A stretch of DNA of 64,000 nucleotides from Odiellus spinosus (taxonomy: Eukaryota > Arthropoda > Arachnida > Opiliones > Phalangiidae). The notes beneath the pieces were generated by a model, which was not told the origin of the DNA, made no database searches, and was given only the letters and a program-made list of their open reading frames with translations. Position numbers and translations under genes: made by a program. The stretch is from positions 23,347,728-23,411,727 of the forward strand of contig OY987229.1 in assembly GCA_963920705.1 (NCBI GenBank). The letters run 5' to 3'. Positions 6,726-38,412 of this stretch are shown piece after piece; position 1 is the stretch's first letter; every line of letters begins with the position of its first letter.

Positions 6726-6979
6726 CACATATAATTACCAATATAAATAAATACCAAATCTCCCGGAGAGATTACATTATAGAAAAATAATTATGATTAT
6801 AATTTCAATTATCTTTTAATAAAAACAGACTTAATTAAGATATATTTTTGACGTAAGGGTTATACAACATCATTATAAATTATAAATATAGGAAGCTTCT
6901 CTATTCATTCTTATTCAAGAATCAACGCGGGCGTTCTTTTTCCCAGATAAACTTCTATACCTTTTTATCCAGCGCTCCT

Positions 6980-16713: not shown

Positions 16714-16743
16714 AGTAGATAGATAATACCATTTCTGCGTCAA

Positions 16744-16797
16744 GTGGTGCCAAGTACCCAATGTGGTGCCAAAGTGGTGCCAGTATTTTGTGGTGCC
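16744..16797 (+). repeat. Subterminal GTGGTGCC iterons, left
   Basis: Four exact copies of GTGGTGCC start at 16744, 16763, 16774 and 16790, within 85 bp of the terminus. They may bind integrase, terminal protein or another replication factor at the end. That is inference from position only. Confidence 0.75.
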
Positions 16798-16874
16798 AAA
16801 GTGAAACCACATTTCTACGTCACTCGGATTTGAAAAAGTCCACTTTTTGATTTTAAAATTTCTATTAAATTTTT

Positions 16875-16947
16875 TATCAACCGGGAATCGAACCCGGCAC
16901 CTGTAGCTTAAGGGTATGACGCTCCAACCAACTTAGCTATTTTAGTT
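16875..16947 (-). ncRNA. tRNA-like Pol III unit in left TIR
   Basis: Minus-strand block with a perfect A-box (TAGCTAAGTTGG, 16928-16939) and perfect B-box (GGTTCGATTCC, 16884-16894). The T-arm has an intact 5-bp stem (CCGGG/CCCGG), while D-arm pairing is only 3 bp and the anticodon and acceptor stems do not close. If the loop is placed as in tRNA the anticodon would read CTT (Lys), but this is not a working tRNA. Transcription would run outward to the element end. Short T runs follow. Confidence 0.55.
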
Positions 16948-17179
16948 ACCAACGTTTCTCTTTAAAAGTCACCTCTTGCACGGTAACTCGTCCATCCACC
17001 AACTAACGGTTAATAGAAGGAAAGGCAGGGATACCCTATTTTTATAATCACATACGTGGGTGAATAAACTTCTTCCATCCTTATCTATATTCTCGGTTCT
17101 TATCTCTATGTTCAGATATCACGTGATTGAAAGTTTAAATTTTAAGACGCGAATATATTTTAATTATGGGAAAAACAGC

Positions 17180-17318
17180 AAGCTTTGGTATCACTACCAT
17201 TTACAAAATACCATATGAAGATAGGGTTAACCACGAATTTCGTCAATTATGTATGTTTAGAATGCGTATTAAATGCGTGTACGATCCAATATTAAAACCA
17301 ATACTGCAACTGAAACAA
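17180..17318 (+). repeat. Diverged inner inverted repeat, left arm
   Basis: Aligns imperfectly with the reverse complement of 31331-31470. Shared blocks include ATGAAGATAGGGTTAAC and TTAAATGCGTGTACGA. It continues the TIR symmetry beyond 17171 but has many substitutions, unlike the outer 458 bp. Confidence 0.75.
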
Positions 17319-17383
17319 ATGAAATATGAGTGATATGGTAAAACCCAACACGTCATTATATCAAAGATCGAGTATTTTCATGG

Positions 17384-17390
17384 TATAAAA
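17384..17390 (+). promoter_or_regulatory. TATA box for the ATPase gene run
   Basis: TATAAAA in the context GGTATAAAAGC, 139 nt upstream of the ATPase ATG, in the otherwise gene-free 17172-17528 leader. A start near 17415 would leave a leader of about 115 nt. Position and consensus only. Confidence 0.5.
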
Positions 17391-17528
17391 GCTAGCTCCA
17401 TCGTATAGATAAGACTATTTTACAACGTTCACGACACTCATCTAGACCTGCTCTCTTCTGGTTAGTATTTTTAAAATTCTTATGACATATATATGCAGTG
17501 ATACTCCAATTCTCTCTCATTTATCGAT

Positions 17529-18164
17529 ATGGATTTAAGTCTGCAACACCCTTTTAACGGACTGGTGGCCGGTGTAACGGGATGTGGAAAAAGCGTCTTT
17601 GTTGCGAAATTAATTGAGCACAAGGAAATTAGAATTTCCCCCACACCCAATCGGATAATATGGTGCTATACTGAATATCAAGACAAACTATTTAATTCCA
17701 TATCGAGTCATACCCCAAGCGTGGAATTTCACGAGGGTCTATTGGATGTAGCCACTTTAAACGCCAACGTTAGAAACTTTGTTATATTAGACGATCTTTT
17801 ATGCGAAATCGCTAATAATAAGGAAGTTACCAACTTATTTATTCGAGGATCCCATCATCGAAATACCTCAGTATTAATTTTAATGCAAAACCTCTACTAC
17901 CCAGGAAAGGAAATTCGAACATTGAATCTCAACGCTCACTATTTGATAATATTTAAAACACCAAGAGACCAATCTGCGATTCTACATTTGGCGAAACAGA
18001 TATCTCCTACCAACAGCAAATACATCGTAGATGCGTTCAGACAAGCTACAGCTATCAGTTACGGATATCTATTCGTAGACCTAAAAGCTACAACTCCGGA
18101 AGATAGAAGATTAAAGACCGGGATATTACCAGGAGAACAAGCCGCCATTTTTGTACCAAAATGA
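17529..18164 (+). CDS. Polinton genome-packaging ATPase (A32/FtsK-HerA type)
   Basis: 211 aa. Predicted DNA-packaging motor that pumps element DNA into a preformed capsid using ATP. Walker A (GVTGCGKS) is at residues 15-22 very near the N-terminus, Walker B (VILDD) at 85-89, and a polar sensor-like stretch (LILMQN) at 116-121. This is the compact core size typical of Polinton and virophage ATPases. The ATG at 17529 is chosen because it places Walker A at the usual short distance and follows the TATA at 17384. Its TGA overlaps the next ATG (ATGA at 18161-18164). First gene of the left plus-strand run. No introns seen. Family call is confident; the packaging role is from the family. Confidence 0.95.
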   Translation: MDLSLQHPFNGLVAGVTGCGKSVFVAKLIEHKEIRISPTPNRIIWCYTEYQDKLFNSISSHTPSVEFHEGLLDVATLNANVRNFVILDDLLCEIANNKEVTNLFIRGSHHRNTSVLILMQNLYYPGKEIRTLNLNAHYLIIFKTPRDQSAILHLAKQISPTNSKYIVDAFRQATAISYGYLFVDLKATTPEDRRLKTGILPGEQAAIFVPK

Positions 18165-18640
18165 CTGGAATCATCGAAGCAAACTTCTTCAGAGTCCAAG
18201 GTCACTGGATTGTAAAAGAAGTAGCCTTATTCGTGAAGGAGACGGGCGAACACGAGGTCTGGATCTTTAAAGCACCATTCCCTTTCACGGACTTGTCGTC
18301 TAAAGATAAAAGGCAGTGTCAATGGCTGACGAGAAACAGTTGCGACTTACGCTGGGACGAAGGAGATCATCCATTCGAAACTCAGCCGGAAATTGCTAAA
18401 AGTATTCGAGAGAAAGTTGATACCTTTATAACCAAAGGCTTAGAAAAATCTATCGTGTTATCGAGGTTTTTGAACACTGAAGTCACTAACGCCGAAGATC
18501 TTGGTTGCCCGAGTCTAGTAACTATAATCGGTGGAACACCTAGAAGTTGTACGTTTCACCGAGACGAGAACAATTGTACGCTCGTGAAAGCTGCCCGATT
18601 AGCTACATGGCTCCGCCGAAGAGAGTACACGAGCACTTAG
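18161..18640 (+). CDS. Conserved Polinton accessory protein (nuclease-like?)
   Basis: 159 aa, starting inside the ATPase stop codon. I recognise the pattern from many invertebrate Polinton-type elements: an N-terminal strand followed by IVKEVALF (about residues 18-25), an FKAPFPF motif (about 36-42), WLTRN (about 55-59), then a GLEKS segment and GCPSL (about 114-118). It ends with a possible metal site, Cys/His in CTFH followed by NNC (about 130-139). In related proteins the first strand carries an acidic residue in an RNase H/DEDD-like position. Here that place reads IIEANFF, so a nuclease role is only a guess. The C-terminus overlaps the next gene by 34 nt. Function unknown. Confidence 0.75.
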   Translation: MTGIIEANFFRVQGHWIVKEVALFVKETGEHEVWIFKAPFPFTDLSSKDKRQCQWLTRNSCDLRWDEGDHPFETQPEIAKSIREKVDTFITKGLEKSIVLSRFLNTEVTNAEDLGCPSLVTIIGGTPRSCTFHRDENNCTLVKAARLATWLRRREYTST

Positions 18641-18945
18641 ACTTTCTAAAATATCTGAGTTCGTGTAATGCGTGTCAACGAAACGCCGCCATTAAATACG
18701 CGAGTAAAGAAGAATTGAAAACCATCGCTGAATGCTGCATAAATATACTGAAGGGTAACGTTTCTCTCACAGATGACGAGAAGAAACGACTGAAGAAGCA
18801 TTGCAATTCCATACGTCGCGTGGCCAAGAAAAATACTCCGGCTAAACGAAGACAAATTTTAATTCAAAAAGGTGGTTTTCTTCCAATATTACTTCCGATA
18901 ATCAGTTCGATAGCCGGGGCTATCCTATCTAAAGTTATCAATTAA
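18607..18945 (+). CDS. Small basic conserved Polinton protein with hydrophobic tail
   Basis: 112 aa. The ATG at 18607 is preferred over an upstream one at 18547 because the conserved part begins just after it. Order: a cysteine pair near the N-terminus (SSCNACQRN), a helix ending INILKGNVSL, a Lys/Arg-rich middle, then QKGGFLPILLPII and a short hydrophobic helix. The ILKGN...KRLKKH...QKGGFLP pattern recurs in Polintons. The basic body with a membrane-seeking tail suggests a DNA-binding or membrane-active virion component. That is inference. It overlaps the previous gene and ends 2 nt before the next ATG. Confidence 0.8.
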   Translation: MAPPKRVHEHLDFLKYLSSCNACQRNAAIKYASKEELKTIAECCINILKGNVSLTDDEKKRLKKHCNSIRRVAKKNTPAKRRQILIQKGGFLPILLPIISSIAGAILSKVIN

Positions 18946-18947
18946 AG

Positions 18948-19562
18948 ATGGCGAAAAAAATGTTGTTAATCTCCGAGGAGACGTACCAAAGACTTAATTC
19001 GGAGAAAGACTTCAAAGTGGATAAAACTTTGGAATTGGAAAAGCCCGATAAAATTAAAGACATACTCGACGATCCTAATTTGAACAACACCGACAAAATT
19101 AATCGCTATAATCACGTGCTCTCGAGGGTTATTAATAAAAGATCGAAGAAAAAAGTTAAAAAACCGAAAATGCAAAATTGGAGTGCGGAGATTGCTTCCG
19201 GTGTGCCGTCATATATGTCCTCGGAGTGTTTAGATTTATACAAGTGGTTGGAGTTAACATTGAAAATTAAATGGACTGACGCCGGGGAGTTGATTTACAA
19301 CAAGCGTAGAGTCGTAGGATCGAACATCGTCGATCTCCTAGCTTATTCAGTTTCAAAATCCAAGAAAAAAATCGCCGTCACGGGCTCGAAAGAGTTCTAC
19401 GAATTGTTGTATAAAGTGAACGCACCAAGATCTCTAATAAAAATCCGCAAACGTGACGTCATCCCACCCGAGAAGAGGGAATATAAAGATGAAACGGAAG
19501 ACGAGTATTATTCTGACGAACCAATGAAGGGTCGTGGTTTCTGTAATTGGATTTCATTGTAA
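18948..19562 (+). CDS. Conserved Polinton protein, MAKKMLLI type
   Basis: 204 aa. It starts MAKKMLLISEETYQRL. A low-complexity Lys/Asp linker (about 20-75) follows, then a C-terminal module with LYKWLE, IKWTDAGELIYN and GSNIVDLLAYSV (about 98-135), and a segment ending APRSLIK. The same pair, small GGFLP protein then MAKKML protein, travels together in many Polinton-like elements, so I treat it as a genuine family of unknown role. An acidic tail (DETEDEYYSDEP) precedes the stop. It is the last gene of run 1; an AATAAA follows 10 nt after the stop. Confidence 0.8.
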   Translation: MAKKMLLISEETYQRLNSEKDFKVDKTLELEKPDKIKDILDDPNLNNTDKINRYNHVLSRVINKRSKKKVKKPKMQNWSAEIASGVPSYMSSECLDLYKWLELTLKIKWTDAGELIYNKRRVVGSNIVDLLAYSVSKSKKKIAVTGSKEFYELLYKVNAPRSLIKIRKRDVIPPEKREYKDETEDEYYSDEPMKGRGFCNWISL

Positions 19563-19572
19563 TATTTGTACC

Positions 19573-19578
19573 AATAAA
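19573..19578 (+). terminator. AATAAA poly(A) signal of run 1
   Basis: AATAAA starts 11 nt after the last base of the stop codon of the 18948-19562 gene and before the next ATG at 19627. It probably ends the ATPase-run transcript. Confidence 0.6.
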
Positions 19579-19626
19579 ATACACTTGAATATATTTTCTC
19601 GATTCATTTATTAATTAGGCTTTGAC

Positions 19627-19815
19627 ATGGAGAGTGGTAATGCCGAGGTTGTCTCTGTAGGACTTTTAGCGTCTCTATTCGAGTCATTTTTAAATTCTCC
19701 CAAGTTATTAACTGCAGTTTTAATTGTATTTATAATTATAATTATAGAAGTTAGCGATTTCGTATTCTGGCATTATAGCACTTCGAACAACTGTTCATTC
19801 AATGGAGGAACTTAA
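19627..19815 (+). CDS. Small single-pass membrane protein candidate
   Basis: 62 aa, not recognised. One strong hydrophobic helix (LLTAVLIVFIIIIIEVSDFVF, split about residues 28-48) with a short polar N-terminal part and a Ser/Asn-rich C-terminus. It sits between the run 1 poly(A) signal and the integrase, and its last 14 nt overlap the integrase start, the same tight packing as the certain genes. It could be a small viral membrane protein, or only a leader ORF in the integrase 5' region. Confidence 0.45.
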   Translation: MESGNAEVVSVGLLASLFESFLNSPKLLTAVLIVFIIIIIEVSDFVFWHYSTSNNCSFNGGT

Positions 19816-20872
19816 AAAAATTTATAATAAGGTTTCGGATCCGGGGTCTTACGGTAGTGTTGACGGCTTATACCGAGCGGCTAAAGACCGAGGATTAAAG
19901 GTTACTGTCAGAGAAATAAGCGATTTCTTGAAAACCCAAGATACTTATACCCTTCACAGGAGTGCGAGGAAACACTTCACTAGAAATAAAACTATAGTCT
20001 ACGGGATCGACGAACAGTGGCAAATCGACTTGGCTGATTTGAAAAGCATTACCAGATATAATAATGGTTTCCGTTATCTATTATGCTGTATCGACGTTTT
20101 CAGTAAGTTTGCCTTCGTGGTTGCGATCAAGGACAAGAAAGGAAAAACTATTCTCAGAGCGTTAAACGGAATTCTGGATTCCGGACGTTCGCCGAAACGA
20201 ATTCAATCGGATCACGGTAATGAGTTTGTGTGCAAGGAAGTACAAAACGAGTTAAAACGAAGAGGGATAAAGTTTTTCGCCCCTGAATCGGAACTGAAAG
20301 CGACGATAGTAGAGAGATTTAACCGGACTTTGAAGACTCGAATGTACCGATATTTTACGGAAAATAATACCTTCAAATATATCAATGTTCTAAAAGAGAT
20401 GGTGAAAGCTTATAATCATAGTTATCATCGATCTATAAAATGTAAACCCGTCGAAGTCACGCTGGCTACATCTAAACGTGTTTGGGAAAATCTATATGGT
20501 GACGTAGATTTCTCGACTCCGCTGTCTTTCCCCTTCGATGTTGGTGACGTAGTTCGTATAAGTAAACACAAGAATCTCTTCGATAAGGGATACTTACCCA
20601 CATGGTCGGAAGAACTTTTCAAAATTTCCGAGAGATTAGCTCGTAGTCCTCCTGTATATAAGATACGCGACTTGAAAGAAGAGCTCATTACCGGGATTTT
20701 CTACCGAGAGCAACTACAGAAAATTGGCAAGGACCTGAGTAACAGCGCTTTTAAAATCGAAAAAGTGTTGAAAAAACGACGCAAGGCTGACGGAAGTATC
20801 GAGAGATTCGTCCGCTGGAAAGGATACCCGCCATCATTCGACAGTTGGGTGCAGGAAATTGACCTTGCATGA
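19802..20872 (+). CDS. Retroviral-type integrase with C-terminal chromodomain
   Basis: 356 aa. Inserts the element into target DNA, giving the 6-bp duplications seen at its ends. The N-terminal helical part (about 1-65) has the typical GSYGSVDGLYRAAK and QDTYTLH patterns. The catalytic RNase H-fold core has D76 (QIDLADL), D137 (QSDHGNEF) and E171 (VERFNRT), with 33 residues between D137 and E171. An SH3-like region (about 240-310) follows, then a chromodomain in the last 42 residues (FKIEKVL...FVRWKGY...SFDSWV). The chromodomain may steer insertion toward methylated-histone chromatin. The ATG overlaps the small membrane ORF, and the stop overlaps the next start (ATGATGA). All catalytic residues are present. 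Confidence 0.97.
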   Translation: MEELKKIYNKVSDPGSYGSVDGLYRAAKDRGLKVTVREISDFLKTQDTYTLHRSARKHFTRNKTIVYGIDEQWQIDLADLKSITRYNNGFRYLLCCIDVFSKFAFVVAIKDKKGKTILRALNGILDSGRSPKRIQSDHGNEFVCKEVQNELKRRGIKFFAPESELKATIVERFNRTLKTRMYRYFTENNTFKYINVLKEMVKAYNHSYHRSIKCKPVEVTLATSKRVWENLYGDVDFSTPLSFPFDVGDVVRISKHKNLFDKGYLPTWSEELFKISERLARSPPVYKIRDLKEELITGIFYREQLQKIGKDLSNSAFKIEKVLKKRRKADGSIERFVRWKGYPPSFDSWVQEIDLA

Positions 20873-21708
20873 TGACGTTCTACATAACCCTACCGTCAGA
20901 CAGTTCTATGAGTTACTTCCCAGGGAATACAATCAGTAAATTTCGAACACATTTACCGGAATCGCTTAAATTACAAGGTCCGTACGAAGTGGCTTTGGTG
21001 GAATTCAGTTATCCTCGCACATGGAGCAATATGAGATCGTCGTGCTGGATATCGTTAACTAACCACGGGGAAAATAGAAATAGCACGAGTCATTCGAGAA
21101 TGGTAGAACTCCCCGCGGGCTACTACGGAAATATAGAAGACCTATTGGAGCAACTCAATTATGACGAAGATGATATCTCGAACGTTACTATACTGAAAAA
21201 GGAGACGCCAGTCGAGGCTGATATGTTCGAGTCGGAGACGACGACGAATGTTAAATACACGTTTAGTTATATCGCGCGATTAAGACGTGTTGAAGTTTCC
21301 GTAAAACCGGATCACTCGTTAACAATACCGGGGGAGTTGGCGGTCATGTTGGGATTTACGAAAGACCATACAAAAACTACGACGATCGTCCACGCGAGAA
21401 TAGCCAGTTATCCTGTCGATTTAGACGCGGGTCTTCATTCACTCTTCATATATTCTGATATCGTTGAAAGTAGGGCTGTAGGCGACGTTCATGTTCCGCT
21501 TCTACGAATAACGAGCGTTCAAGGGAATGACGGGGATACGGTAGACAGAGAATTTTCTCGTCCGCATTACCTCCCAGTTTCCTGCAATTCCTTTCAATCT
21601 ATCGAAATTAACGTTATGAGTGAAATGGGATTACCCGTCAAGTTCGAAAGAGGTAAAGTTCACGCGACTCTACACTTTAGACCTCGAAGAATGTGGTCGC
21701 CCTTATAA
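20869..21708 (+). CDS. Minor capsid (penton-type) protein
   Basis: 279 aa. Matches the Polinton minor capsid family by its N-terminal pattern: FYITLPSDSSMSYFPGNTIS (about 4-23), then a LPESLKL strand and YEVALVEFSYPRTW (about 39-52). The family is predicted to fold as a single jelly roll and occupy the five-fold vertices. The body is beta-rich with a PAGYYGNIEDLLEQL motif and a conserved-looking FRPRRMW end. It starts inside the integrase stop codon, so there is no room for its own promoter. 60 nt separate it from the core-protein gene. Confidence 0.9.
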   Translation: MMTFYITLPSDSSMSYFPGNTISKFRTHLPESLKLQGPYEVALVEFSYPRTWSNMRSSCWISLTNHGENRNSTSHSRMVELPAGYYGNIEDLLEQLNYDEDDISNVTILKKETPVEADMFESETTTNVKYTFSYIARLRRVEVSVKPDHSLTIPGELAVMLGFTKDHTKTTTIVHARIASYPVDLDAGLHSLFIYSDIVESRAVGDVHVPLLRITSVQGNDGDTVDREFSRPHYLPVSCNSFQSIEINVMSEMGLPVKFERGKVHATLHFRPRRMWSPL

Positions 21709-21721
21709 ATAAGTCGGTAGT

Positions 21722-21751
21722 ATGGACGCGCTCGCCATTCTTATCGAGTGA
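21722..21751 (+). CDS. Nine-codon upstream ORF before the core-protein gene
   Basis: The 60-nt gap 21709-21768 contains ATG...TGA encoding nine residues (MDALAILIE), ending 17 nt before the next ATG. It may be a regulatory mini-ORF that helps ribosomes reach 21769, or chance. Very short, so low confidence. Confidence 0.2.
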   Translation: MDALAILIE

Positions 21752-21768
21752 GCTAAACGAGACGCATC

Positions 21769-22254
21769 ATGAAACAAAAACTGTCCTCCACTCAGTCGGA
21801 CTACGATCGTCACTTCTTAAATCAAATTGGACATGGGATTAAGGTTGACTACGCAAAATATTTCCAAAGTCAAATAGGAAAGGGTTCTATACCCGTATAC
21901 CAGGGTCTTCCCGTTCAACAAGGATACGGTTTAGGGAACTTTATCGCCTCGGCCTTTCGTCGAGCCGTACCACTTTTGAAGAAGGGAGCCATGTATCTTG
22001 GGAAAAAACTGTTAAATACTGGATCTAAAATCGTTAACGACGTAGCCAGCGGAATTCCCGTAAAATCTGCGGCTAAATCTCGTGGCAAAGACGCTGCGAG
22101 AGATGTCGTAATCAGTGCCGCGGACGAAATCGCTAGAATGACTGGAAATGGGCATAAAAGAAAGTGTAAGCGACAAAGGCTAGTCAGTTCAGCGACGAAC
22201 AGGAAGAAGAGAAGACCGTTCTTAAAACCCTCCGATATATTTTCTACAATATAA
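21769..22254 (+). CDS. Basic virion core protein, adenovirus pX/pVI-like
   Basis: 161 aa, strongly basic. It carries the signature seen in Polintons and adintoviruses: PVYQGLPVQQGYGLGNF (about 42-58), a hydrophobic/basic amphipathic helix (AFRRAVPLLKKGAMYLGKKL), TGSKIVNDVASG, then KSRGKDAARDV. The C-terminus is a Lys/Arg cluster (GHKRKCKRQR, NRKKRR) that looks like a DNA-binding or nuclear-localisation tail. By analogy it packs DNA in the capsid or helps disrupt membranes on entry. Gly-rich spots such as QIGHG and QIGKG may be protease sites; that is inference. Its TAA overlaps the capsid ATG (TAATG). Confidence 0.8.
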   Translation: MKQKLSSTQSDYDRHFLNQIGHGIKVDYAKYFQSQIGKGSIPVYQGLPVQQGYGLGNFIASAFRRAVPLLKKGAMYLGKKLLNTGSKIVNDVASGIPVKSAAKSRGKDAARDVVISAADEIARMTGNGHKRKCKRQRLVSSATNRKKRRPFLKPSDIFSTI

Positions 22255-23600
22255 TGGCTCATATCCATCCCGATTCCCAAGGTTCGGTTAGTTCCGAAGT
22301 CGAACTTTTCAACGTTCCGCTCACAAACGCTAGTATTGTGAGTGGAGAATGGGTTGAGTATAGTCCCATCTCGAACATTAACGAAAATTCAACTCTAACC
22401 TTCGCCGTGGCCGGAAACTCCGATACGTACATTGATTTGTCCAAAACTTTGTTACATCTACAAGTTAGACTCGTCGACCCAGCGGACGGGAGAACAATTC
22501 CAGCGGCGGCAGTAATCGATGCGGCTGGGGTAATCACCACACCGGCGGATGTGGTAGCGCCCGTGAATCTGTTTCATTCGAGCCTTTTTAGCGAGGTACA
22601 CGTTTCCTTGGGCGATAGATCGGTAACACCATCGCCGCAGAACTATGCCTACAAGGCCATGTTTCAAACTACCGTGACTTTTGGTGGACCTGCGAAAACG
22701 AGTTTTCTAACGGCTGCCATGTACTACAAGGATACTGCCGGAAAATTCAACACCCCGTCGGACAATGAAGGTTTCAAGAAAAGAGCAAGTTTCGCTAAAC
22801 AAGGGACCATTGATATGATTGGCGCGGTTCACACGGATTTGTGTCAACAGTCACGTTTTATTCCGAACATGATTGACTTGAAATTTAAATTTATTAAAAG
22901 CTCCAACGAATTTTGTATTCAAACCTTAGCGGGTGGCGTTAGATGGAAGGTTCAATACGAACTCGCTTCCCTGTATATCAGAAAAGTAAAATTAACTCCC
23001 GAGATTACAATTGCCCACGCCAAATGTCTCGAACTAGCTACCATGAAATATCCAATAACTCGAACGGAGTGTAACTCTTTTTCCATAAATAGCGGAACTA
23101 AAATCTGTGTTAGAGATAATCTCTTTATGGGACAGTTACCCAAACGAGTCCTTTTCGCTCTGGTAGAACAGAACGCCTATTTAGGCGATTATACCCAGTC
23201 GCCCTTTAATTTCCAACACTTTGATTTAAATCATATCGCTCTCTACCTCGACGGAACTAGCGTTCCTCACAAGCCTTTAACCCCTAATTTCGAGAGACAT
23301 CAGTACATGAGATCGTACACTAATCTTTTCACTCAAACATCCCAATGGTTCATTGACGAAGGGAACTTTATCTCACGCGAAGAGTTTCCTGGTGGAAACT
23401 GTATTTTCGTATTTGATTTGAGTCCTGACCTCAGTTGTTCAGCTTCACAATTTCAGTTGATAAAGAATGGTAATTTGCGATTAGAATTAAAGTTCGCCAG
23501 GGATTTGCCGAAGACTGTTAGCGTATTATACTACGCCGAATTTCAAAATTTAATTGAAATTGACAAAAACAGGAACGTTATTTACGATTATACCAATTAG
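22254..23600 (+). CDS. Major capsid protein (double jelly-roll)
   Basis: 448 aa. Matches the Polinton major capsid family: an SEVELFNVPLTNASI start (about 15-29), the SGEWVEYSPIS strand, DLSKTLLHLQVRLVD (about 62-76), PVNLFHSSLFSEVHVSLGD (about 101-119), and PSPQNYAYKAMFQT. The C-terminal half has LYLDGTSVPHKPLTPNF and a closing strand ending NRNVIYDYTN. Family knowledge: two jelly rolls per chain and trimeric capsomers building an icosahedral shell. The start is fixed by the 1-nt overlap with the preceding stop, and length is usual. No break seen. Confidence 0.95.
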   Translation: MAHIHPDSQGSVSSEVELFNVPLTNASIVSGEWVEYSPISNINENSTLTFAVAGNSDTYIDLSKTLLHLQVRLVDPADGRTIPAAAVIDAAGVITTPADVVAPVNLFHSSLFSEVHVSLGDRSVTPSPQNYAYKAMFQTTVTFGGPAKTSFLTAAMYYKDTAGKFNTPSDNEGFKKRASFAKQGTIDMIGAVHTDLCQQSRFIPNMIDLKFKFIKSSNEFCIQTLAGGVRWKVQYELASLYIRKVKLTPEITIAHAKCLELATMKYPITRTECNSFSINSGTKICVRDNLFMGQLPKRVLFALVEQNAYLGDYTQSPFNFQHFDLNHIALYLDGTSVPHKPLTPNFERHQYMRSYTNLFTQTSQWFIDEGNFISREEFPGGNCIFVFDLSPDLSCSASQFQLIKNGNLRLELKFARDLPKTVSVLYYAEFQNLIEIDKNRNVIYDYTN

Positions 23601-23603
23601 AAA

Positions 23604-24068
23604 ATGGACTCTCAGCAGTTAGCTAAAATAATGGAAAAAGATTCGTTCACTAAAGGTCTGTTTCGAGGTATTTTCGCAGCCGATAAATTACCCAAAACTG
23701 TTAAAACCTTTCCTTCACTCTATATTGTAAATACGGGATTATCGCATACCGAAGGCGAACATTGGACGGCTGTCTATTTTTCTCGTAATAGGAATACAGA
23801 GTTCTTTGACAGTTTCGGTAACCCTCCAGACATGTTTAAATTTAACGATTTTGTGGAAAGAAACAGTATAACTGTTACATTTAACTCCAAACAATTACAA
23901 GGTAACTTTAGTATGACTTGTGGCGGATACTGTGTTTATTTTGCTTTGTATAGATGTAGAGGTGTTAAATTGTTTAATATATGTGCAAGATTTAAAAAAG
24001 ATAAAAATGTTAATGATAAAATGATTTCGGAATTTATGTACGAGAGATTTTCAATAAACTTTTTTTAA
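23604..24068 (+). CDS. Adenain-like cysteine maturation protease
   Basis: 154 aa, Ulp1/adenovirus-protease (C5) type. Catalytic residues by motif: H53 (GEHWTAVYF), D69 (EFFDSFG), Q99 (QLQGN) and C106 (MTCGGYC). The 7-residue Gln-to-Cys spacing is the same as in adenain. It is predicted to trim capsid and core proteins during maturation. It begins 3 nt after the capsid stop (TAGAAAATGG) and is the last gene of run 2. The AATAAA at 24053-24058 lies inside its final codons. Length is at the short end but complete. Confidence 0.93.
   Translation: MDSQQLAKIMEKDSFTKGLFRGIFAADKLPKTVKTFPSLYIVNTGLSHTEGEHWTAVYFSRNRNTEFFDSFGNPPDMFKFNDFVERNSITVTFNSKQLQGNFSMTCGGYCVYFALYRCRGVKLFNICARFKKDKNVNDKMISEFMYERFSINFF
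24053..24058 (+). terminator. AATAAA poly(A) signal of run 2, inside the protease end
   Basis: AATAAA in TCAATAAAC overlaps the last codons of the protease and precedes its TAA at 24066-24068. Cleavage 10-30 nt later would give an almost UTR-free transcript end. Confidence 0.55.
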
Positions 24069-24088
24069 CCAAAACACTTGAGATTTTC

Positions 24089-24169
24089 TAACCTAACCTA
24101 ACCTAAATTAATCTAACCTAACCTAACCTAATCTAATTTAAGCTGACTTAGTCTAATCTAACCTAAATT
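24089..24169 (+). repeat. CCTAA (TTAGG-like) pentamer tract
   Basis: Runs of ACCTA/CCTAA with decayed copies (ATCTA, ATTTA). Similar short runs occur on the minus sense at 24596-24606, in PolB intron 4 (26099-26115), near 31508, and in host DNA near 63582. The unit equals the arthropod telomere repeat, but it is degenerate and may be simple-sequence drift. Confidence 0.6.
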
Positions 24170-24263
24170 GACGAGAGGGTAATCCTTCGCGGTAGTCGCG
24201 GACGCGCGCGATTCAAATTTTAAAACGCGCGCGATTAATTTACCAACGCGAGGCGTTAGTCGT

Positions 24264-24265
<2 letters not shown>

Positions 24266-24298
<33 letters not shown>
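24266..24298 (+). repeat. 33-nt poly(T) run
   Basis: Uninterrupted T run on the plus strand. Read on the minus strand it is a poly(A) lying about 60 nt downstream of the small-RNA candidate at 24361-24473. It could be a retroposon tail or slippage. Confidence 0.9.
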
Positions 24299-24302
<4 letters not shown>

Positions 24303-24360
24303 CAACACACTAGTAGCATGTTTTAGTGAAAGATTGTGCATTAATTTAAATGAGTAAAAA

Positions 24361-24473
24361 CTAGGCTCGATGGCATGGTACGAATGCCAATCGGTTTTCA
24401 CCTCCACCGGGTATCGAACCCGGAACGTTGGTGAGTTAGACTAACACTCTAAGTACGACGCCACCGAGCCTAG
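24361..24473 (-). ncRNA. Candidate Pol III structured small RNA (VA-RNA-like)
   Basis: Minus-strand unit of about 113 nt. Its first 21 nt (24473-24453) pair with its last 21 (24381-24361), giving nine perfect pairs (CTAGGCTCG/CGAGCCTAG) then twelve more with one C-C mismatch and two G-U. Inside is a B-box hairpin, CCGGG-TTCGATA-CCCGG (24407-24423), with an exact B-box (GGTTCGATACC, 24410-24420). An A-box-like TGGCGTCGTACT (24452-24463) matches 6 of 9 fixed positions and lies 31 nt upstream. TTTTT (24360-24356) follows the stem directly, as a Pol III terminator would. It lies past the PolB end on the same strand. Layout recalls adenovirus VA RNA. The alternative is a tRNA-derived SINE with the 24266-24298 tail. 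Confidence 0.6.
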
Positions 24474-24705
24474 TTATCATATAGAAACATTTTACCCCTT
24501 TTCAGCATGATATTTGTTATCTATCCTAAGCTTATCTACTTTAGTATAGGATTCCTCAGAGCTAACCTAACCCTGGGTTGAAAGTACAACGGTTAGGTTA
24601 GGTTAGCTTTATGGCTATGTAAGTCTAACGTCTGTTACCCATACCCAGATTTGTAAAAAGTTGGAAATAATACGTGAATATATAGAAGCAATCAAAATAA
24701 AATAT
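24474..24705. other. Spacer between small-RNA candidate and PolB end
   Basis: Non-coding. It contains GGTTAGGTTAGGTTAG near 24594-24608 and CCTAACC near 24563-24570, short inverted TTAGG-like motifs. No ORF I can support. Confidence 0.6.
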
Positions 24706-24710
24706 TTATT
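24705..24710 (-). terminator. AATAAA poly(A) signal overlapping the PolB stop
   Basis: On the minus strand GAATAAATA contains both the TAA stop (24708-24706) and AATAAA. The same stop/signal overlap occurs in the 226-aa gene. Confidence 0.6.
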
Positions 24711-26957
24711 CAAAAATTCGAAAATGACCATGGGCAAATGTTGAAATCCCATCAACGATATACCTTTTATCGTCACATGGATTAAGGGCTAATTTTGTTT
24801 GTTTAATTGTAAATAGTTCGTGTTTGTAGCTGACAATTCGATTCATTTCTTCGGTAGTTAATGTACGATTTAATAGACATTCTTTGTATTGCGCGTGGCG
24901 TAGCTTCTTTTGTACAACTCGGCGACAAATCCCCTTGGCTGTCTTCTTCTCTCCTTTTTCCGAAAGTAGGGAATACATTTTCGGTCTTAACCCGCAGAAT
25001 TCTTGTACTGGCACTCCGTTAAGTTCATCTTTGAATTTACCTAGTGTTTTTTTGTTTACTTCACTATGAAGCGGATGGTTTTTAGGATAATCCGAAAAGT
25101 CATACGCATCGCTCTGTTCCGCAAAATCTTTATAAATGTCATCGGTCTCGATATGGTAGGTTAGACTATCAGTATCGGTAAAAAGTAATTTTGCTTTGTC
25201 CCCGTACTGTCGTCTAATAGTGTCATAATGAAATTCATACATTATGAGTTTCGATAAGTCCAGCACGGTGAAACCAGTAAAGATGGGACGATTCAGGGTT
25301 AAGGTTTTTTGGAGAAGATGAATCCCCACTAAATCCTCATTAAAGACGGTGAACCTTTCGAAAGCGGGCGAGCTAGCCTTTTTGATTGCACGTTCCGGAG
25401 ATTGGACGAGGTAGAAGGAAATGCGGTTGCGGAGATTCTCCATCGTTTTGCCTGGAATAATAGATAAATAAAAATCTAATTATTAACAAGAATGTATACA
25501 CGGTGGAATGGAATTGTATATAATAAAATACTGACCATAGACAGCGTTGTTCTGCAACTTGAAAAATTCTCGTTCAAATTGATTGGTGGCAATTTTTCTC
25601 TTATTGGTATTAAACTCAATGAAGGGTTTAAGCCATGGCCCTTGCACGAAGGATATCATCCGATGAACTTTGCTAATTTTTAGCCCCTTTGAAACGTAGT
25701 ATTTCAAGTTCCTGTAGTGTACCACGTATCTTTCTTTAGCGTACAAGGAAGGTACCAGTTTCGGTGCACTATCCATTTCCTTAAGACCTAGGAATTTTAG
25801 CTGGTCTTTAGAATACGTGGACAGTTCAGTAGTTGAAATAATACGTTTCTCGGGGGCTAAAGGATAACAATTATGGTCATCATGGAGTTCCTTTGGATAC
25901 TCCATATCCACCTCGAGAATAAAGCCCGTTTCATCATCGTCAGGGTGTTCCAGAATTTTCTCCACTTTGAAAGCAGGGCTTGGCTTTATCCATTTAAAGT
26001 CGCGAATTGGTAGGCTGTCGCACATAGCGCATCCATAAAGGTTGTTACAGTCTATAAATATAAAAGAATAGTAATAAATTAAAGAAAAATATTTAAAAAC
26101 CTAACCTAACCTAACTTATCAATCTTACCTAAATACCCAATGAAACTGTTAGGCTTAGTTTCGTCGTATGTGTTTGGCAAATAGCGGTTATTGGCCTGCG
26201 CTAATCTATGACTGATCATACTGACTCCTCCTCGAATGCCTTTCTCAATAAAGATGTACATGTCTGGATCGGTTAAAAGGTCCAATTTGACCTTCGTTTT
26301 CTTCAATGCGCTTTCCCACGCAAAGCCTGGACCAGTATAAGCGTGCGCACAATCAAGATCGTAAAAGTTAAAGCACATTTCGCGAAAACTTTGAAATACA
26401 TCTGCCAAGAGCAGTGTATCTGACTGTACGTAGAGATCATGGTAATCGCCTATAGGGAGAAATAACTTGAGTACCTATGTCTTCATTATTTAATAAAACT
26501 GCTCTTAAAATACTTACCGAGAGTTTGTATATCAAATTTCTCCCATACTTTCTGCGCGTGCGTGTAGTCTTCGTCGCTGATTTCTTCTTCCGTTAAAGAA
26601 TTGTAGAACGCTTCCTTGGGTGGTAATTGTTTTTCGGCAAACTTCTTCACGTTATCCATGTAATCATAAGGATAAACCTGTTTTCGGATCAGGAGTTCGA
26701 TGGCGTCTGTGGTGTAAACTGTCTTCATGCATGTGAATTTGTCAGTCCCGTCTTTAGCCAAGTTTTCGGCTAGAGTTTGTAGGGAAGCGGGCATGAACCG
26801 CATTGTATCCAGAAATCGTAGGGGGCCTTGAGAAAATGATATGTATTTCTCCGAGTTCGAAGGGATGCACTTAATATCTTCGTCCTTATGGAGTCCAATT
26901 TTTTGCATGATAAGATGTGCGTCATAACTGAAAAAAATAAATAAGTAAAAGTTATAG

Positions 26958-26988
<31 letters not shown>

Positions 26989-29308
26989 AATAGATAAAAA
27001 ATTAAAAAAATAAAAATATATTTACCAAGAAAGATTGTGAAAGAAAACCGGTATATGTTTGGGAGGTTTTAACTTCAGATTGCAAGAGTTATGCGCCGCG
27101 CCACGGAAGACCCCAGAAGTATGGTCATGGTCCCTGACTTTATAATCCTTTTCAGTAAAAGACCCGTCGCACACGTAACATTTTCCTGCCTTCAAAAAGC
27201 CAGTTTCTTCGACGTCTGTCAGTTTCATTGGAATGTTCACCTTGTTCAATTCCAGTAGCTTTGCCCCTTCTTCCTCTAGCTTATTCAGGAATACTTCTGT
27301 CGCATCCTCTCCCCGGTATGTCACGGGTTTAGACGGCTTTCCATCTGGTCCCACCACGACATAACTAAATCCACATGAAATGTGATGAGTGAGTTTCGTT
27401 GTTGATGATAGTGTGGGGTCAGGCATACATCTCGCAAACTTGGGCAACACCGTTTCAAAATCGGCGTAGATCACGTGCTTGATCTAAAGAGAAAGAAAAA
27501 AATTAGATATTAGTTTAAACATACTTTAAACACATTTAAATACGTTAATAAAATATACTCACTTTTTGGTGCCATTCATATTTCTTGAATTCCAGAATCG
27601 ATCCCTTTAATGGCATTTTAATTTTTTGCGGACCATGAATTGAACAATCAGTCACGTGTTCGTCTCGGTTTTTTTCGGAGTTAGTTCCCGCAAATCGATG
27701 CAGACAGTAGCGACAGTAGTGGGTGGTGTGACCGTCTTTTGAAAAATTGTTCAGCAAACGACTTAAACTTCGTATTAGACAATAATGCCATTTCGCGCCT
27801 TCAGTTATTAATAAAATATCTATTTGACGTTCTTTGCTCACTTTGTTCTTAGTAATATAACACGGAAAAACACCACCTTCGTAATAAAAAATATTAATAG
27901 AAAGGTCGTTCCTAACTTCAAATTTTTCTAATTTAGCAGCATTTAGTACTAAAGGAAATTGAATGTCCGTCGTATCGAGCTCGTTTTCAAACTCCAAGTA
28001 TTTTCGTACTCGAGTTGGGTTATCTTTACTTTCTACTGGATGGAGATGCGCCAGCACCGACCACAAAAAGCATCGATTATCATCGTTTTTGATGTTAAGA
28101 ATCGCTTTCTTATCCGCTAATTTTTTCGGCAACGCAATATAACTCCCTCCCACTAGTGGCAAGTACGTAATAATGTTAACTTGTAAAAAGAGGATTCTAT
28201 CTAAAGTCCACCCACTACCTCCTTTTAAAAACTCTTCAATCCGCTTCGCGATTTTTTGTCCACACAGGTCAATCTGGTTAGGAATTGTGTCCGCCGTAAG
28301 AGTCTGTTGAATTCCACTTCTATGGTACGCGAGAAACTCAACCTCTTCGCCCGAATCCGCTAGTTCCCGTACATATCGTGCCCGGATCGTGATATACCAT
28401 TTTATACCTTTTTTCTGTGTTAGCTTGCTTTGTAGAAAGTTTTCCATCATACCCCTATGTTTCGTCATGTATTCGTCAACGTCCGTCACATCTAACTTCG
28501 GAGTAACGCGCGCGCAAAATACAGCATGACCCAGGGCGTTCAGTTCTTCAAGTTCATCAAAAACAGGAGTGTTTTCTGGTGTGGCGATGATGGGTTCCGG
28601 TAAAGCGTCTACTTCGGCGTTCTCCACTTGATCCATAAAATCCTGCAAGGTTTTACTTTCTTGAGTGGATAGAGGGTCAAGAGAATCCTTTCCATCCGTG
28701 GGGCGGTCTTCAACAGCCTCCTGATGGTCCATAAAATCCTGCAAGGTTTTACTTTCTTGAGTGGTTAGAGGGTCAAGAGAATCCTTTGCATCCGTCGGGC
28801 GGTCTTCAACAAACTCCTGGTGGTCCATAAACTCGTGGAGAGCTTTATTTTCTGGCGTGGATAGTTCTGACATGGGGTCTTCCAACTCTTCTAAGTGGTC
28901 TCCGATTCGTACGTCATCTTGGCTTACGTGTATGTCATCCGATGTGGTCTTCCCGGTGTGAGTGGCGACTGGTGTATCTGAGAGTGATACGGATGAAGGT
29001 GCTTCGACTGGAGGCGTGGTTCCTGCGATTTTGACTTTTTTGGCTTGTTGATTCACTTCGTGAACCTCGGCTAGGTCATCGTGACCTCGTCGTCTTGAGC
29101 GGGATGGACGAGATGGCCCAGGTTGATCAAAAATGACATCATCGTCCTCGGCATGAAGGCGTATATGCCGGTTTAAGGCATCTTTCCTCGAAAATGTTTT
29201 GTCACATAAAGGACATGGGAAACTGACATTCTCATGCTTGGCACGTTGATGCCGCCAAAGACTTTTGAGCACAGAGAATTTAGCCCCACATACTTCGCAA
29301 CAAACCAT
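24706..29308 (-). CDS. Protein-primed DNA polymerase B, six exons
   Basis: 1398 aa. Exons on the minus strand: 29308-27563, 27483-27026, 26927-26518, 26449-26129, 26051-25536, 25451-24706. All five introns (79, 98, 68, 77, 84 nt) are GT-AG and keep frame. It copies element DNA from protein-primed ends. Order: two C2H2 fingers (C4/C7/H20/H25 and C32/C35/H48/H52), a basic patch, an acidic 32-aa repeat block (149-239), the Polinton N-terminal domain (YITIRARYV...WTLDRIL...NDDNRCFLWSVLA), a CRYC...H...C finger, Exo I D590/E592 (YADFE), an HNH/endonuclease VII-like CYVC...RDHDH...HNSCN motif, Exo II D737 (YDAH), Exo III Y878/D882, motif A D979 (DCNNLYG), motif B K1143 (KLQNNAVYG) and motif C D1243/D1245 (DTDS). 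All catalytic residues are present. The ATG at 29308 follows a TATA at 29431-29437. Confidence 0.95.
26928..27025 (-). other. PolB intron 2 with long poly(A/T) run
   Basis: 98-nt intron, donor GTAAAT, acceptor TTTTTTCAG. It carries a run of about 27 A on the plus strand (poly-T on the transcript) and lies between the HNLS and YDAH parts of Exo II. Confidence 0.85.
28592..28864 (-). repeat. 96-bp coding tandem repeat in PolB exon 1
   Basis: Two full and one partial copy of a 32-residue unit with core TQESKTLQDFMDHQ and EDRPTD, residues 149-239. Copies 2 and 3 are nearly identical in DNA. The unit is acidic and predicted disordered or helical. I do not know it from other PolB proteins. Confidence 0.9.
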
Positions 29309-29430
29309 TTTAAATATAACTAAGTCTAGCTTAGCGCAAACTTACTAACTAAACGGCAGGATCTTCCAGTTGATGGTGACTCGAGAGAGTAGATGATTGA
29401 ATTGATAACTTTCTAGCCTGTTCATCTTCT

Positions 29431-29437
29431 ATTTATA
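29431..29437 (-). promoter_or_regulatory. TATA box for PolB
   Basis: TATAAAT (minus strand, in CATATAAATAG) lies 123 nt upstream of the PolB ATG. A start near 29405 would give a leader of about 97 nt. Confidence 0.5.
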
Positions 29438-29479
29438 TGATTTTTTACTGTAGTATTATATTAACTACAGATAATGTGT

Positions 29480-29700
29480 TTATAAGCATAAGGAATGCTT
29501 GATAAGGATAACGACATCATTACGGGTAACTCTTACTCCCTACCTTTCATTGTATTACTTCCAGAACATTGATAAGGAATATATATTGAACCCTATGGTA
29601 TTATAACTATGCGAAAGGGTAACGACGTCATTTCGTGAATCACTCTTACCCGATATTTCAGTGAATTATCATGATAAGGACTATATTGATCTTTTGAACC
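29480..29700. repeat. Two imperfect direct repeats upstream of PolB
   Basis: Two units of about 110 bp share, in order, a GGTAAC/GATAACGAC block, ACGTCATT or CATCATTACG, TAACTCTTACTC versus ATCACTCTTACCC, ATTGATAAGGA versus ATGATAAGGA, and TTGAACCCTA. The second unit has GACGTCA, a CRE/ATF-like core (about 29621-29627). Lying between the two minus-strand genes, it may be a control region or origin. The 29309-30049 gap holds no ORF I support. Confidence 0.5.
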
Positions 29701-30049
29701 CTAGGTTAATATAGTTAAGCAAATAAAATCATATTGGAAATTTTGGTATGTTTGCTCTATTAGTGATTTTTCTTCTTTTTCCTTATCAGTATGTTTGTGT
29801 TTTTGGGTTTTTTTCCCAAAATTGGGTGGATATTAATTTAGGAAAATTTCTTATAGATGGAAAGTGCAAAGAATGAATATTTTATATTCTATCCACTGGT
29901 TTAAGTTTAATAAAGTGAAAGGCAGGGTGTATGAACAGTGTCTAAGAAAATATTACACACCTATCCCCTTCATATCTTTGAATTCTAGTACATTTAAATG
30001 AGTGGACAGAATATGAAAAAATACAACAAGTTAAAATATGATTTTTTAA

Positions 30050-30055
30050 TTTATT
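30050..30055 (-). terminator. AATAAA poly(A) signal overlapping the 226-aa gene stop
   Basis: TGAATAAA on the minus strand: the last A of the TGA stop is the first A of the signal. Confidence 0.6.
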
Positions 30056-30819
30056 CACAAATCACGCTTGGAATTAATTACATTTAGGGTGACCATTTGT
30101 TTACAGAATTCAAAACTTAAAAAAGTAGTGTTATTAAAGGCTTGAGTTATATTTTCTATATTTAAACTGCTAACAGCTTCAGAATAATTATTGTCTACAC
30201 GCTCTGCCCAGTTATGCGTAATGCATTCATGTTGAAGCTGGGAACCGTGAGATATACGACAGCCATTACAAGCTGCAGCAATATATTCGGTAAGCTTTAA
30301 AACTACGATGCCTTTAACAGCTTGAAAAACCCTATTTACCTCGTTTACGAACGTGGTAACCTGTGTGTGTTGATCCAGGAGTTTCTCCCATAGCCTTGAA
30401 CCGATGGCAAACCCATTTTTGGTCGGGTAAAGAGTGCCGTAATTACTTCCGCTACCTTGAGTCATTTCTCGGATATTTAGTATTTTATGTTCTTTATAAG
30501 TCGATAATTCAATGCGTTTATTAGGGGCTCCTTCGAAGAAAACCGTGCTAGGCTTAGCATCATCGTTGTTGAAAAAGTTCGTTACTTCTTCCCGCATTCC
30601 ATATAGTTGACCATATTCGTTTTCGCTCAAAAATATACCAGTTGATCCATCAGTATATCCTAACTTTATCCTACAGTCAGGGGTTACGGTAATTGACTTA
30701 CGCGGGGAAATCTCAAACACGTTGGTATTATCCCTATAGTAATAGAAGAGTTAGTTTAATATATCATCAAGTTCTAACTAAAAAATATAATTAAGTTCAA
30801 TAGGGTTTGGTACTTACAT
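30055..30819 (-). CDS. Two-exon 226-aa protein with Cys/His motif; split start codon
   Basis: Exon 2 (30733-30055) is open throughout and reads D-N-T-N-V-F-E from its second base, but it has no ATG near its 5' end, and a TAA lies just upstream in frame. Removing an 84-nt GT-AG intron (30817-30734, donor GTAAGTA, acceptor ACTATAG) joins AT of exon 1 (30819-30818) to G of exon 2, creating the ATG. A GTG at 30720 is the only alternative. The protein (226 aa) has a CNGCRISHGSQLQHEC motif about two-thirds along (C-x2-C-x3-H-x5-H-x-C), likely zinc binding. I have seen such C-x2-C...SQ..H.C motifs in unnamed invertebrate element proteins but cannot name it. Poly(A) signal overlaps the stop. Confidence 0.7.
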
Positions 30820-31330
30820 TTTAGAGTATTGTTCCTAGTTGTTGTCTCGAAGTTGAAAAGTTTTAAAATGATCTTATCCAAAAATGGCGGCTTTATTTCA
30901 AGCCTTCGGAGCTAAATATTGGTTTTGTGTAATCTAATCTAAAATTCCTCGTTGTTTCAATTTGGGAAAATTCTAAATTCTAATAATTCAAAATTGTTTG
31001 TCAGTAAATATTGATATTTACTATTTCGATATGTGGTTTGCCTTAAATTTCATATGATAGATTCATTATTTACCTTTACAAGTTTTATCAAAAGTACAGT
31101 TTGTGAAAATTAAAGTTAAGAATAGTCATGATGGAGAGTAACGCTTAACTTAAAGTTTCATACCACGAGTAATTTAAAAATAAGCTTAAAGAAGTATATA
31201 ACGCCTGTATGATTTTTCTTTGGATACCTAGGGTTGCGCATAAAATAGGCTTACCGAATAATAGTGTGTGTTTTTAGCCACGTGTGACCTGGTATAATAC
31301 TAATGTGTGATGACACATTCACTGTTTATG
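30820..31330. other. Right spacer and 5' leader of the 226-aa gene
   Basis: About 510 bp with no ORF I support. The first 50-100 bp likely hold the non-coding part of exon 1 and its promoter, though no clear TATA is seen. Confidence 0.5.
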
Positions 31331-31470
31331 TGTTTTAATTGTAGGATTGGTTTTAGTAATGGTTCGTACACGCATTTAATATGTATTCTAAACATTCAGG
31401 CTTGGCGAAATTGGTAGTTAACCCTATCTTCATAGGGAATAACGTTAACAGTAGAAATACCGAATCTTAC
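31331..31470 (-). repeat. Diverged inner inverted repeat, right arm
   Basis: Partner of 17180-17318. On this side about 300 bp (31471-31766) with no counterpart on the left separates it from the TIR. That extra stretch holds a GGTTAGGTT motif near 31508 and no coding signal I can support. Confidence 0.75.
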
Positions 31471-31990
31471 AGTTTTTCGACCTCCCATGATATAGGATAC
31501 TAATTAGGTGAGGTTAGGTTAAATGTATTCGAATTTAAGCGTCGTAATAAACCCAATAGATTAATTTCGTGGGACAAGGCTTAGTTATTTCGTGTATTTA
31601 AATTAACGAAGAATTGGGTTACGTCACGATTTTAAACTGGTACACTCACGTTGGTCGAACTAACACATAAAACCCTGAGTCATCATAGATAACGGATTCT
31701 TGGATTTTTCACTGATAACAAGACTACGAAAATTATAACGTAGAGATAAGACCAAGTTTTTCGAGCTCCCATAATTAAAATATATTCGCGTCTTAAAATT
31801 TAAACTTTCAATCACGTGATATCTGAACATAGAGATAAGAACCGAGAATATAGATAAGGATGGAAGAAGTTTATTCACCCACGTATGTGATTATAAAAAT
31901 AGGGTATCCCTGCCTTTCCTTCTATTAACCGTTAGTTGGTGGATGGACGAGTTACCGTGCAAGAGGTGACTTTTAAAGAGAAACGTTGGT

Positions 31991-32063
31991 AACTAAAATA
32001 GCTAAGTTGGTTGGAGCGTCATACCCTTAAGCTACAGGTGCCGGGTTCGATTCCCGGTTGATA
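31991..32063 (+). ncRNA. tRNA-like Pol III unit in right TIR
   Basis: Mirror copy of the left-TIR block: A-box 31999-32010, B-box 32044-32054, spaced 33 nt apart as in tRNA genes. It reads outward toward the right terminus. A TTTT run lies about 15-20 nt past the end. It resembles a degenerate tRNA-Lys(CTT), with only the T-arm clearly paired. It may be a Pol III promoter, an old tRNA capture or a fossil. Confidence 0.55.
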
Positions 32064-32140
32064 AAAAATTTAATAGAAATTTTAAAATCAAAAAGTGGAC
32101 TTTTTCAAATCCGAGTGACGTAGAAATGTGGTTTCACTTT

Positions 32141-32194
32141 GGCACCACAAAATACTGGCACCACTTTGGCACCACATTGGGTACTTGGCACCAC
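32141..32194 (-). repeat. Subterminal GTGGTGCC iterons, right
   Basis: Mirror copies (GGCACCAC on the plus strand) of the left iterons, carried by the right TIR. Confidence 0.75.
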
Positions 32195-32224
32195 TTGACG
32201 CAGAAATGGTATTATCTATCTACT

Positions 32225-36399: not shown

Positions 36400-36406
36400 A
36401 TATTAT

Positions 36407-36743
36407 CAGAAGCCGATGAAACCCTCCTTTGAAGTCTATTACTCCCGGGTCTTGTCTACCCCTCTCTGTATGGGTTAGTTTCAAAAAGCGTGATTCGTAC
36501 GCCTCCTAACGGTAGATATTTTCGGAGCGGAAGTTCGTCCAGCGAATATCTCTAGCAGCCTCGGAGTTCGTCAAAAAAACGTCGTCGTTTGTGGAGAGAG
36601 AGAATTTCCAATTTTGCGTAGACAGGGGGGTATGAAGTAGGACCCCTCCGATCTCGTAAAATTGGGAATTTTACCCATACAGAGAGGCGCGCTATATCGA
36701 ACATTAGAGTAGTAGACTTCAAAGGAGGGTTTCATCGGCTTCT
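36407..36743 (-). mobile_element. MITE family A, copy 2 (inverted)
   Basis: 337 bp, opposite orientation to the other copies, with perfect ends CAGAAGCCGATGAAACCC and its complement. ATATTAT duplication at 36400-36406 and 36744-36750. Confidence 0.92.
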
Positions 36744-36750
36744 GATATTA

Positions 36751-38061: not shown

Positions 38062-38068
38062 ATAATAC

Positions 38069-38405: not shown

Positions 38406-38412
38406 ATAATAA

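Follow-up and report, generated by a model that had tools for sequence, protein, structure and literature searches.

Polintons are thought to lie near the root of several groups of eukaryotic DNA viruses and, to our knowledge, have so far been described mainly by their protein genes. Small RNAs made by RNA polymerase III (Pol III) are known from herpesviruses and retroviruses, and include the EBERs, tRNA-linked miRNA precursors and the pre-miRNAs of a bovine retrovirus. In adenoviruses, VA RNA carries box A in its terminal stem and box B in its apical stem and ends at a U-run terminator; it competes for Exportin-5 and Dicer and is itself diced from the terminal stem, as stated in part of one account (PMC7589676). 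Polinton-like viruses of protists encode tRNAs, group I introns, snRNAs, miRNAs and other Rfam RNAs, which were found with ARAGORN and Rfam according to part of another paper (PMC12220804). No Polinton small RNA of the VA-like kind appeared among the matches listed in a search of titles and the beginnings of abstracts, and no paper combined 'polinton' and 'VA RNA', in a library without bioRxiv-held preprints and most subscription papers; the sequence words of the unit described here were not found in papers either.

The window, which is the whole stretch of 64,000 nucleotides that was analyzed, contains a minus-strand unit that an initial annotation had proposed to be a Pol III small RNA encoded by a Polinton and resembling VA RNA. 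We regard it as fairly probable, from sequence and predicted fold, that this unit is a Polinton-borne Pol III gene for a VA-RNA-like hairpin RNA, which would probably serve as a Dicer substrate or RNAi decoy.

The Carrier Polinton and Its Gene Gap

The element that carries the unit spans positions 16714–32224 (15.5 kb). It is assigned to the Polintons because it has identical terminal inverted repeats (TIRs) of 458 bp, a 6-bp target-site duplication (TSD), TGCGTC, and an integrase, which bears a chromodomain according to Pfam. Protease, ATPase and capsid genes are also present, as judged from weak Pfam matches and capsid relatives.

16714–17171, plus strand: left TIR, from the 458-bp TIR comparison, with TSD TGCGTC outside
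31767–32224, minus strand: right TIR, identical to the left TIR
23604–24068, plus strand: adenovirus-type protease gene, Pfam Peptidase_C5 with E 6.9e-4 and 19.8 bits against a cut-off of 21.3
24706–25443, minus strand: last open piece of the presumed PolB region, from its open frame, DTDS motif and position

The names protease, ATPase and capsid are drawn from sub-threshold Pfam matches (Peptidase_C5, 6.9e-4; Adeno_IVa2, 7.7e-4; DJR-like, 0.025; all below cut-off), from gene order and from capsid relatives. The capsid protein has 387 relatives at E ≤1e-3; among the matches listed (120 of 387), the name given by the source, where there is one, is mostly 'uncharacterized' or 'F54H12.2-like'. 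Some named relatives come from butterflies, a mealybug and a spider, others from a starfish and a coral; together with the TTAGG-type repeats of the window they point to an arthropod host. The piece at 24706–25443 is taken by us to be PolB from its DTDS motif and its position. The presumed PolB is seen as separate open pieces, two of which, this piece among them, were run against Pfam and gave no polymerase match.

The stop of the presumed protease (24068) and the PolB-side stop (24706) face each other across a gap of 637 bp that contains the unit. TTAGG-type repeats and a T33 run lie in the same gap, as does a GC-rich inverted repeat (24202–24298), which is next to the T33 run and close to the unit. 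Family A′, introduced below, has a stretch related to 24153–24265 (L055, 2248–2361).

The presumed PolB region as a whole (24706–29341, minus strand) comprises about six open pieces parted by short AT-rich stretches, one of them with A28, and these breaks may be short introns or decay. Within it, an open reading frame on the minus strand (27545–29308) encodes N-terminal C2H2 zinc fingers and contains a 96-bp tandem repeat (28632–28864). The window also contains six copies of a probable MITE, a repeat about 350 bp long whose ends are inverted (CAGAAGCCGATGAAACCC...), at 6380–6739, 36396–36758, 38058–38419, 45754–46115, 52701–53062 and 54403–54761.

Structure of the Hairpin Unit

24356–24475, minus strand: whole small RNA unit, with its 5′ end at 24475 and the T run as its 3′ end, from the fold and the genome copies
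24453–24475, minus strand: 5′ arm of the terminal stem (predicted fold)
24359–24381, minus strand: 3′ arm of the terminal stem (predicted fold)
24453–24463, minus strand: A-box-like motif TGGCGTCGTAC within the terminal stem, from sequence, with a degenerate 3′ end
24410–24420, minus strand: exact B box GGTTCGATACC in the apical hairpin, from a motif scan
24382–24449, minus strand: helix 2 (24439–24449 with 24382–24392) and the inner helix with the apical hairpin (predicted fold)
24356–24360, minus strand: TTTTT, a Pol III-type terminator as far as its sequence tells

In the predicted fold of the minus strand, positions 1–18 of the unit pair with 100–117, C19 and C99 are mismatched, and positions 20–23 pair with 95–98. 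The terminal stem of 21 positions with one mismatch in the initial annotation is thus real and slightly longer, with 22 pairs in 23 positions, two G-U pairs among them. It is followed by helix 2 of 11 pairs and then by an inner helix leading to the hairpin of the exact B box, which had also been recognized earlier and which is closed by GGGT/ACCC.

The first half of TGGCGTCGTAC agrees with the tRNA A box and its final bases disagree, when scored by the tRNA consensus; the corresponding copy in family B, TGGCGTAGTAC, is a better fit. Judged by its letters, the A box is imperfect, and this counts against a Pol III gene. The distance from A box to B box is 32 nt, which lies inside the range of 30–40 bp between the boxes of type-2 promoters given in part of a published account (PMC7279448). 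The TTTTT is present at the end of the stem, where it overlaps the final two pairs instead of following directly after them as had been described. As predicted signals, the A-box-like motif, the B box and the TTTTT have the layout of a type-2 Pol III gene.

The unit reaches a minimum free energy (MFE) of −66.9 kcal/mol, whereas its shuffles average −32.3 (sd 3.9), which gives z −8.8. None of 200 shuffles folded as well, and when 120-nt windows were taken at steps of 20 on both strands of the 64 kb, the unit was the most stable of all 6388 folds. The folding check proposed in the initial annotation accordingly came out in its favor. The complementary strand folds at about −50 to −52 kcal/mol, and in all four distinct full copies the RNA strand folds 9–16 kcal/mol better than its complement. 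Stem length alone is unremarkable, the longest uninterrupted run being 18 pairs against a mean of 14 and a maximum of 20 in simulations with G-U allowed, and so is the number of B-box-like sites with at most one mismatch: the whole window has 12 where 9.3 are expected, and 28 of 100 shuffles have as many or more.

Copies in the Host Genome

A search of the host genome with the unit gave 13 matches in 443 Mb; this search skips very common words, and a very abundant repeat could be under-counted. All 13 lie within 5.2 kb of Polinton genes, 10 of them within 1.5 kb and three at 2.5–5.2 kb from degraded ones, and 10 have Polinton genes inside their own 3.1-kb stretch. The matches comprise three identical copies in family A, three full units in family B and seven partial copies. 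A covariance model run over 25 sequence sources gave 24 matches at E ≤1, which were the known copies, their complementary strands and partial copies, and one further weak match (L046, 2303–2369, E 0.0035).

Family A consists of the window copy (C5), C12 and C249, in which the unit is identical and the surrounding 3.1 kb are 99.9–100% identical. TSDs were read for two of the three, TGCGTC in the window and CTTCGC in C249, and the near identity of three Polintons whose TSDs, where read, differ suggests that they moved recently.

In family B (L044, L045 and L046), full units that are 83–84% identical to that of the window lie just upstream of the ATPase gene and read toward the end of the element. 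This end is AGTAGATA, as in family A, and the C107 copy has the TSD CCTGGC. The TIR of family B, roughly 900 bp long, begins inside the hairpin unit, and consequently the B box and the 3′ half are repeated at the other end of the element, beside the p30055 homologue. Such repeats are L050 on C107, L051 on C17 (34 kb from L045) and L052 on C8, for which no partner was found. In the protease-to-PolB interval of family B there is no B box where the protease is present (L061), and the C107 copy is without that stretch (L060). The position of the unit therefore differs between families A and B within one genome, and their strong similarity is limited to 131–156 bp around it. TTTTT is present in L044 and L045 and absent in L046, and L045 has two changes in the B box; every signal is kept in one of the three full family-B copies.

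Family A′ (L047, L048 and L049) consists of near-identical loci with only the 3′ half of the unit, and protease and capsid genes with broken frames lie at 5.1, 2.5 and 5.2 kb from them, respectively. Family C (L053) has the last part of the 3′ half, adjoining an ATPase whose first 73 residues are without match. The partial copies of families A′ and C are without the 5′ half.

Conservation of the Unit between Families

The alignment used for counting pairs contained four of the 13 matches, L042 and L043 (identical to L041) and the seven partial matches being left out; for substitutions, L044 alone was tested against family A, and L045 and L046 were counted separately. Between A and L044 the synonymous sites of the ATPase gene are near saturation (pS 0.744, Jukes-Cantor dS 3.7), as are those of the p30055 gene between A and L050 (pS 0.754), and the p18547 gene is much less diverged (dS 0.81). 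The unit itself differs at 19 of 120 sites between A and L044. None of these differences falls among the 44 sites of the terminal stem, against 6 of 22 in helix 2, 6 of 26 in the inner helix and 7 of 28 at unpaired sites; were changes spread evenly over the unit, a terminal stem free of all 19 would have P 6.6e-5. L045 and L046 differ from A at 20 and 22 sites, with one and two in the terminal stem, respectively. Conservation of the stem among related Polintons, which the initial annotation had called for, is hence found in one sister family, B.

Eight of the 11 variable pairs of L044 are still paired, one through a double change (simulation P about 0.02, or 0.05 when changes are confined to helices 2–3, the inner helices), and controls with slid alignments gave 0–3 further pair types against 10; a column-shuffle control was uninformative (243 of 500). 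The covariation is thin, with two diverged full-length families and one double change. Per 10 nt, the differences number 2, 5 and 6 before the gene, 0–5 inside it, 0, 0 and 0 over its last 30 nt, and then 4 and 8. Divergence of the flanks is expected because those of A and B are different parts of the element, and it marks the edges of a module. Since the unit has changed place, a later exchange between the families than the split of their ATPases is possible, which softens the argument from saturation; such an exchange would leave the uneven distribution of changes within the unit unaffected. Read against the predicted fold, the unit appears to be conserved as a structure.

The conserved terminal stem also bears on the possible product. 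Its 22 pairs have the length of a Dicer substrate and are unchanged between A and L044, as would suit a Pol III precursor of specific viral microRNAs, or of piRNA or siRNA guides, in place of a decoy; tRNA-linked precursors in a mouse gammaherpesvirus and Pol III microRNAs in a bovine retrovirus are precedents. Conservation of the whole hairpin, however, fits decoy and precursor equally. A guide precursor is unlikely in our estimate, the microRNA form being the next choice after a Dicer decoy or substrate.

The same arms, perfectly conserved in L044, could be the 23-bp inverted ends of a MITE that lives on Polintons, the stem then being a transposase site and not an RNA structure, and a self-contained module whose place differs between two families would agree with this. 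There is no TSD, however, and copies are few; the inner helices tend toward kept pairing, L044 retains both the B box and the T run, and folding is much more stable for the RNA strand than for its complement, all of which makes a MITE quite unlikely.

A tRNA-derived SINE, or another non-autonomous element of the host that landed in a Polinton by chance, would bring tRNA-like boxes and could differ in place between families A and B; in the window copy the strand of the unit carries 33 consecutive A, beginning 57 nt downstream of it, and three partial matches were found 2.5–5.2 kb from the nearest Polinton gene. The terminator, however, precedes the A run, and family-B copies are without a long one (at most five A in 400 nt). 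No target-site duplication borders the window copy, the longest words shared by its flanks being 5 and 6 nt, and the 3′ end of the unit is complementary to its 5′ end, which is unusual for a SINE. Dispersal as a host SINE had been named in advance as the observation that would overturn an element-borne unit; the 443 Mb yielded 13 matches, and none of them was shown to lie away from Polinton genes, in a search that skips very common words. An origin as a host repeat is thus improbable.

Outward-Facing Units in the TIRs

31999–32083, plus strand: tRNA-like Pol III-type unit in the right TIR, reading outward, with A box TAGCTAAGTTGG (31999–32010), B box GGTTCGATTCC (32044–32054) and TTTT (32080–32083)
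16855–16939, minus strand: mirror unit in the left TIR, reading outward

The A box of the TIR unit, TAGCTAAGTTGG, matches the consensus used and is followed after 33 nt by an exact B box; a pair of this type occurred in none of 400 simulated elements. The TIR unit is unlike the hairpin unit outside the B-box region, and neither ARAGORN nor Rfam, at its gathering score, recognized it. It may represent the relic of a tRNA, a gene for a small RNA or a site for TFIIIC. The family-B hairpin unit sits in an outward-facing position comparable to that of the TIR unit. The Polinton accordingly holds two independent stemmed B boxes, in the hairpin unit and in the TIR unit, and at least one was present in none of the simulated elements (first-order, n = 400); two per 15.5-kb element is far from chance. 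It is highly improbable that the hairpin unit is a TFIIIC-binding or replication or packaging signal in the DNA (insulator, nuclear position or replication stop) without a functional RNA, because this reading, although both TIRs also carry stemmed B boxes and the family-B element on C107 has a B box at both ends, leaves the conserved terminal stem, the strand asymmetry and the terminator unexplained.

A Model for the Hairpin RNA

Transcription by Pol III and a decoy role are what we infer from the sequence, the predicted fold, the association with Polintons and the pattern of conservation. TFIIIC and TFIIIB of the host would bind the internal A and B boxes of the unit, and Pol III would transcribe the minus strand into an RNA of 113–120 nt, stopping in the TTTTT. 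The product would fold into a long hairpin with imperfect pairing and end in a short 3′ overhang of U, and replication of the element may yield many copies of it. This RNA would act as both decoy and substrate of Dicer, occupying the dicing or export machinery, and the conserved terminal stem may possibly also be a source of small RNAs. Because arthropods rely largely on RNAi against viruses, a VA-RNA-like role toward Dicer is the most likely one.

A conserved hairpin gene of the Pol III type would give Polintons a non-coding weapon akin to that of adenoviruses; it predicts that Polintons meet antiviral RNAi and hence behave as viruses, and an RNA with a 3′ U end would be a simple marker of active elements. 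A broader proposal, which is no more than tentative, is that animal Polintons encode a Pol III small RNA apparatus of their own, with a VA-like hairpin that would block or feed Dicer to counter RNAi, together with the outward TIR units. On this view, adenoviruses would not be alone in using Pol III small RNAs, which would recur as a tool across the branch formed by Polintons and adenoviruses.

Relatives of the unit or its element were also sought among viral sequences. Phage records gave no DNA match, and no relatives were confirmed in IMG/VR by capsid, by one PolB piece or by capsid alignment. A generic 16-mer B-box pattern matched 37 stretches of IMG/VR; two matches to a pattern of the 3′ arm are taken to be due to chance, with no GGTTCGA in the surrounding 138 nt, and two other patterns had no match.

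Comparison with Known Systems

The unit is not a tRNA gene: ARAGORN (bacterial code) found none in the window, and the MFE fold is one hairpin. It has the A and B boxes of tRNA-derived SINEs at tRNA spacing, but differs from them in its complementary ends, in the terminator at the stem, and in that neither Polinton-free copies nor a TSD was seen. The Pol III RNAs of herpesviruses and retroviruses likewise are compact viral genes with internal boxes and hairpin products (predicted here), although these viruses are unrelated and the unit is without a cloverleaf. With the polinton-like viruses of protists it shares the presence of non-coding RNA genes within Polinton-related elements; those RNAs, as far as part of that paper describes them (PMC12220804), are detectable by ARAGORN and Rfam, whereas the hairpin unit is missed by both.

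The likeness to VA RNA drawn by the initial annotation is supported for architecture and unsupported for kinship. No Rfam family matched at gathering score, and VA is absent among the four weak matches at E ≤10. Three contigs of more distant Polintons (L038–L040), with capsid proteins 28–29% identical, have no exact B box, and the unit has no fixed position. L039 and L040 each have the full set of protease, ATPase and capsid genes, and the shorter L038 has this set minus the ATPase. These three belong to a Limnohabitans MAG and carry Polinton gene sets; they are probably misbinned eukaryotic DNA.

VA RNA is roughly 160 nt long and the unit about 117 nt, and the GGGU-ACCC of the central domain of VA RNA is found in the predicted fold only as the B-box hairpin, with no separate central domain. 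In both, so far as the features of VA RNA are set out in part of its cited account, box A lies in the terminal stem, where TGGCGTCGTAC is a partial match to the consensus, box B lies in the apical stem (24410–24420 in the unit), and a long hairpin ends at a Pol III U-run terminator, the TTTTT of the unit being known from its sequence. Each also belongs to a DNA virus, and the proteases of the two are related, as seen here from the weak match to Peptidase_C5.
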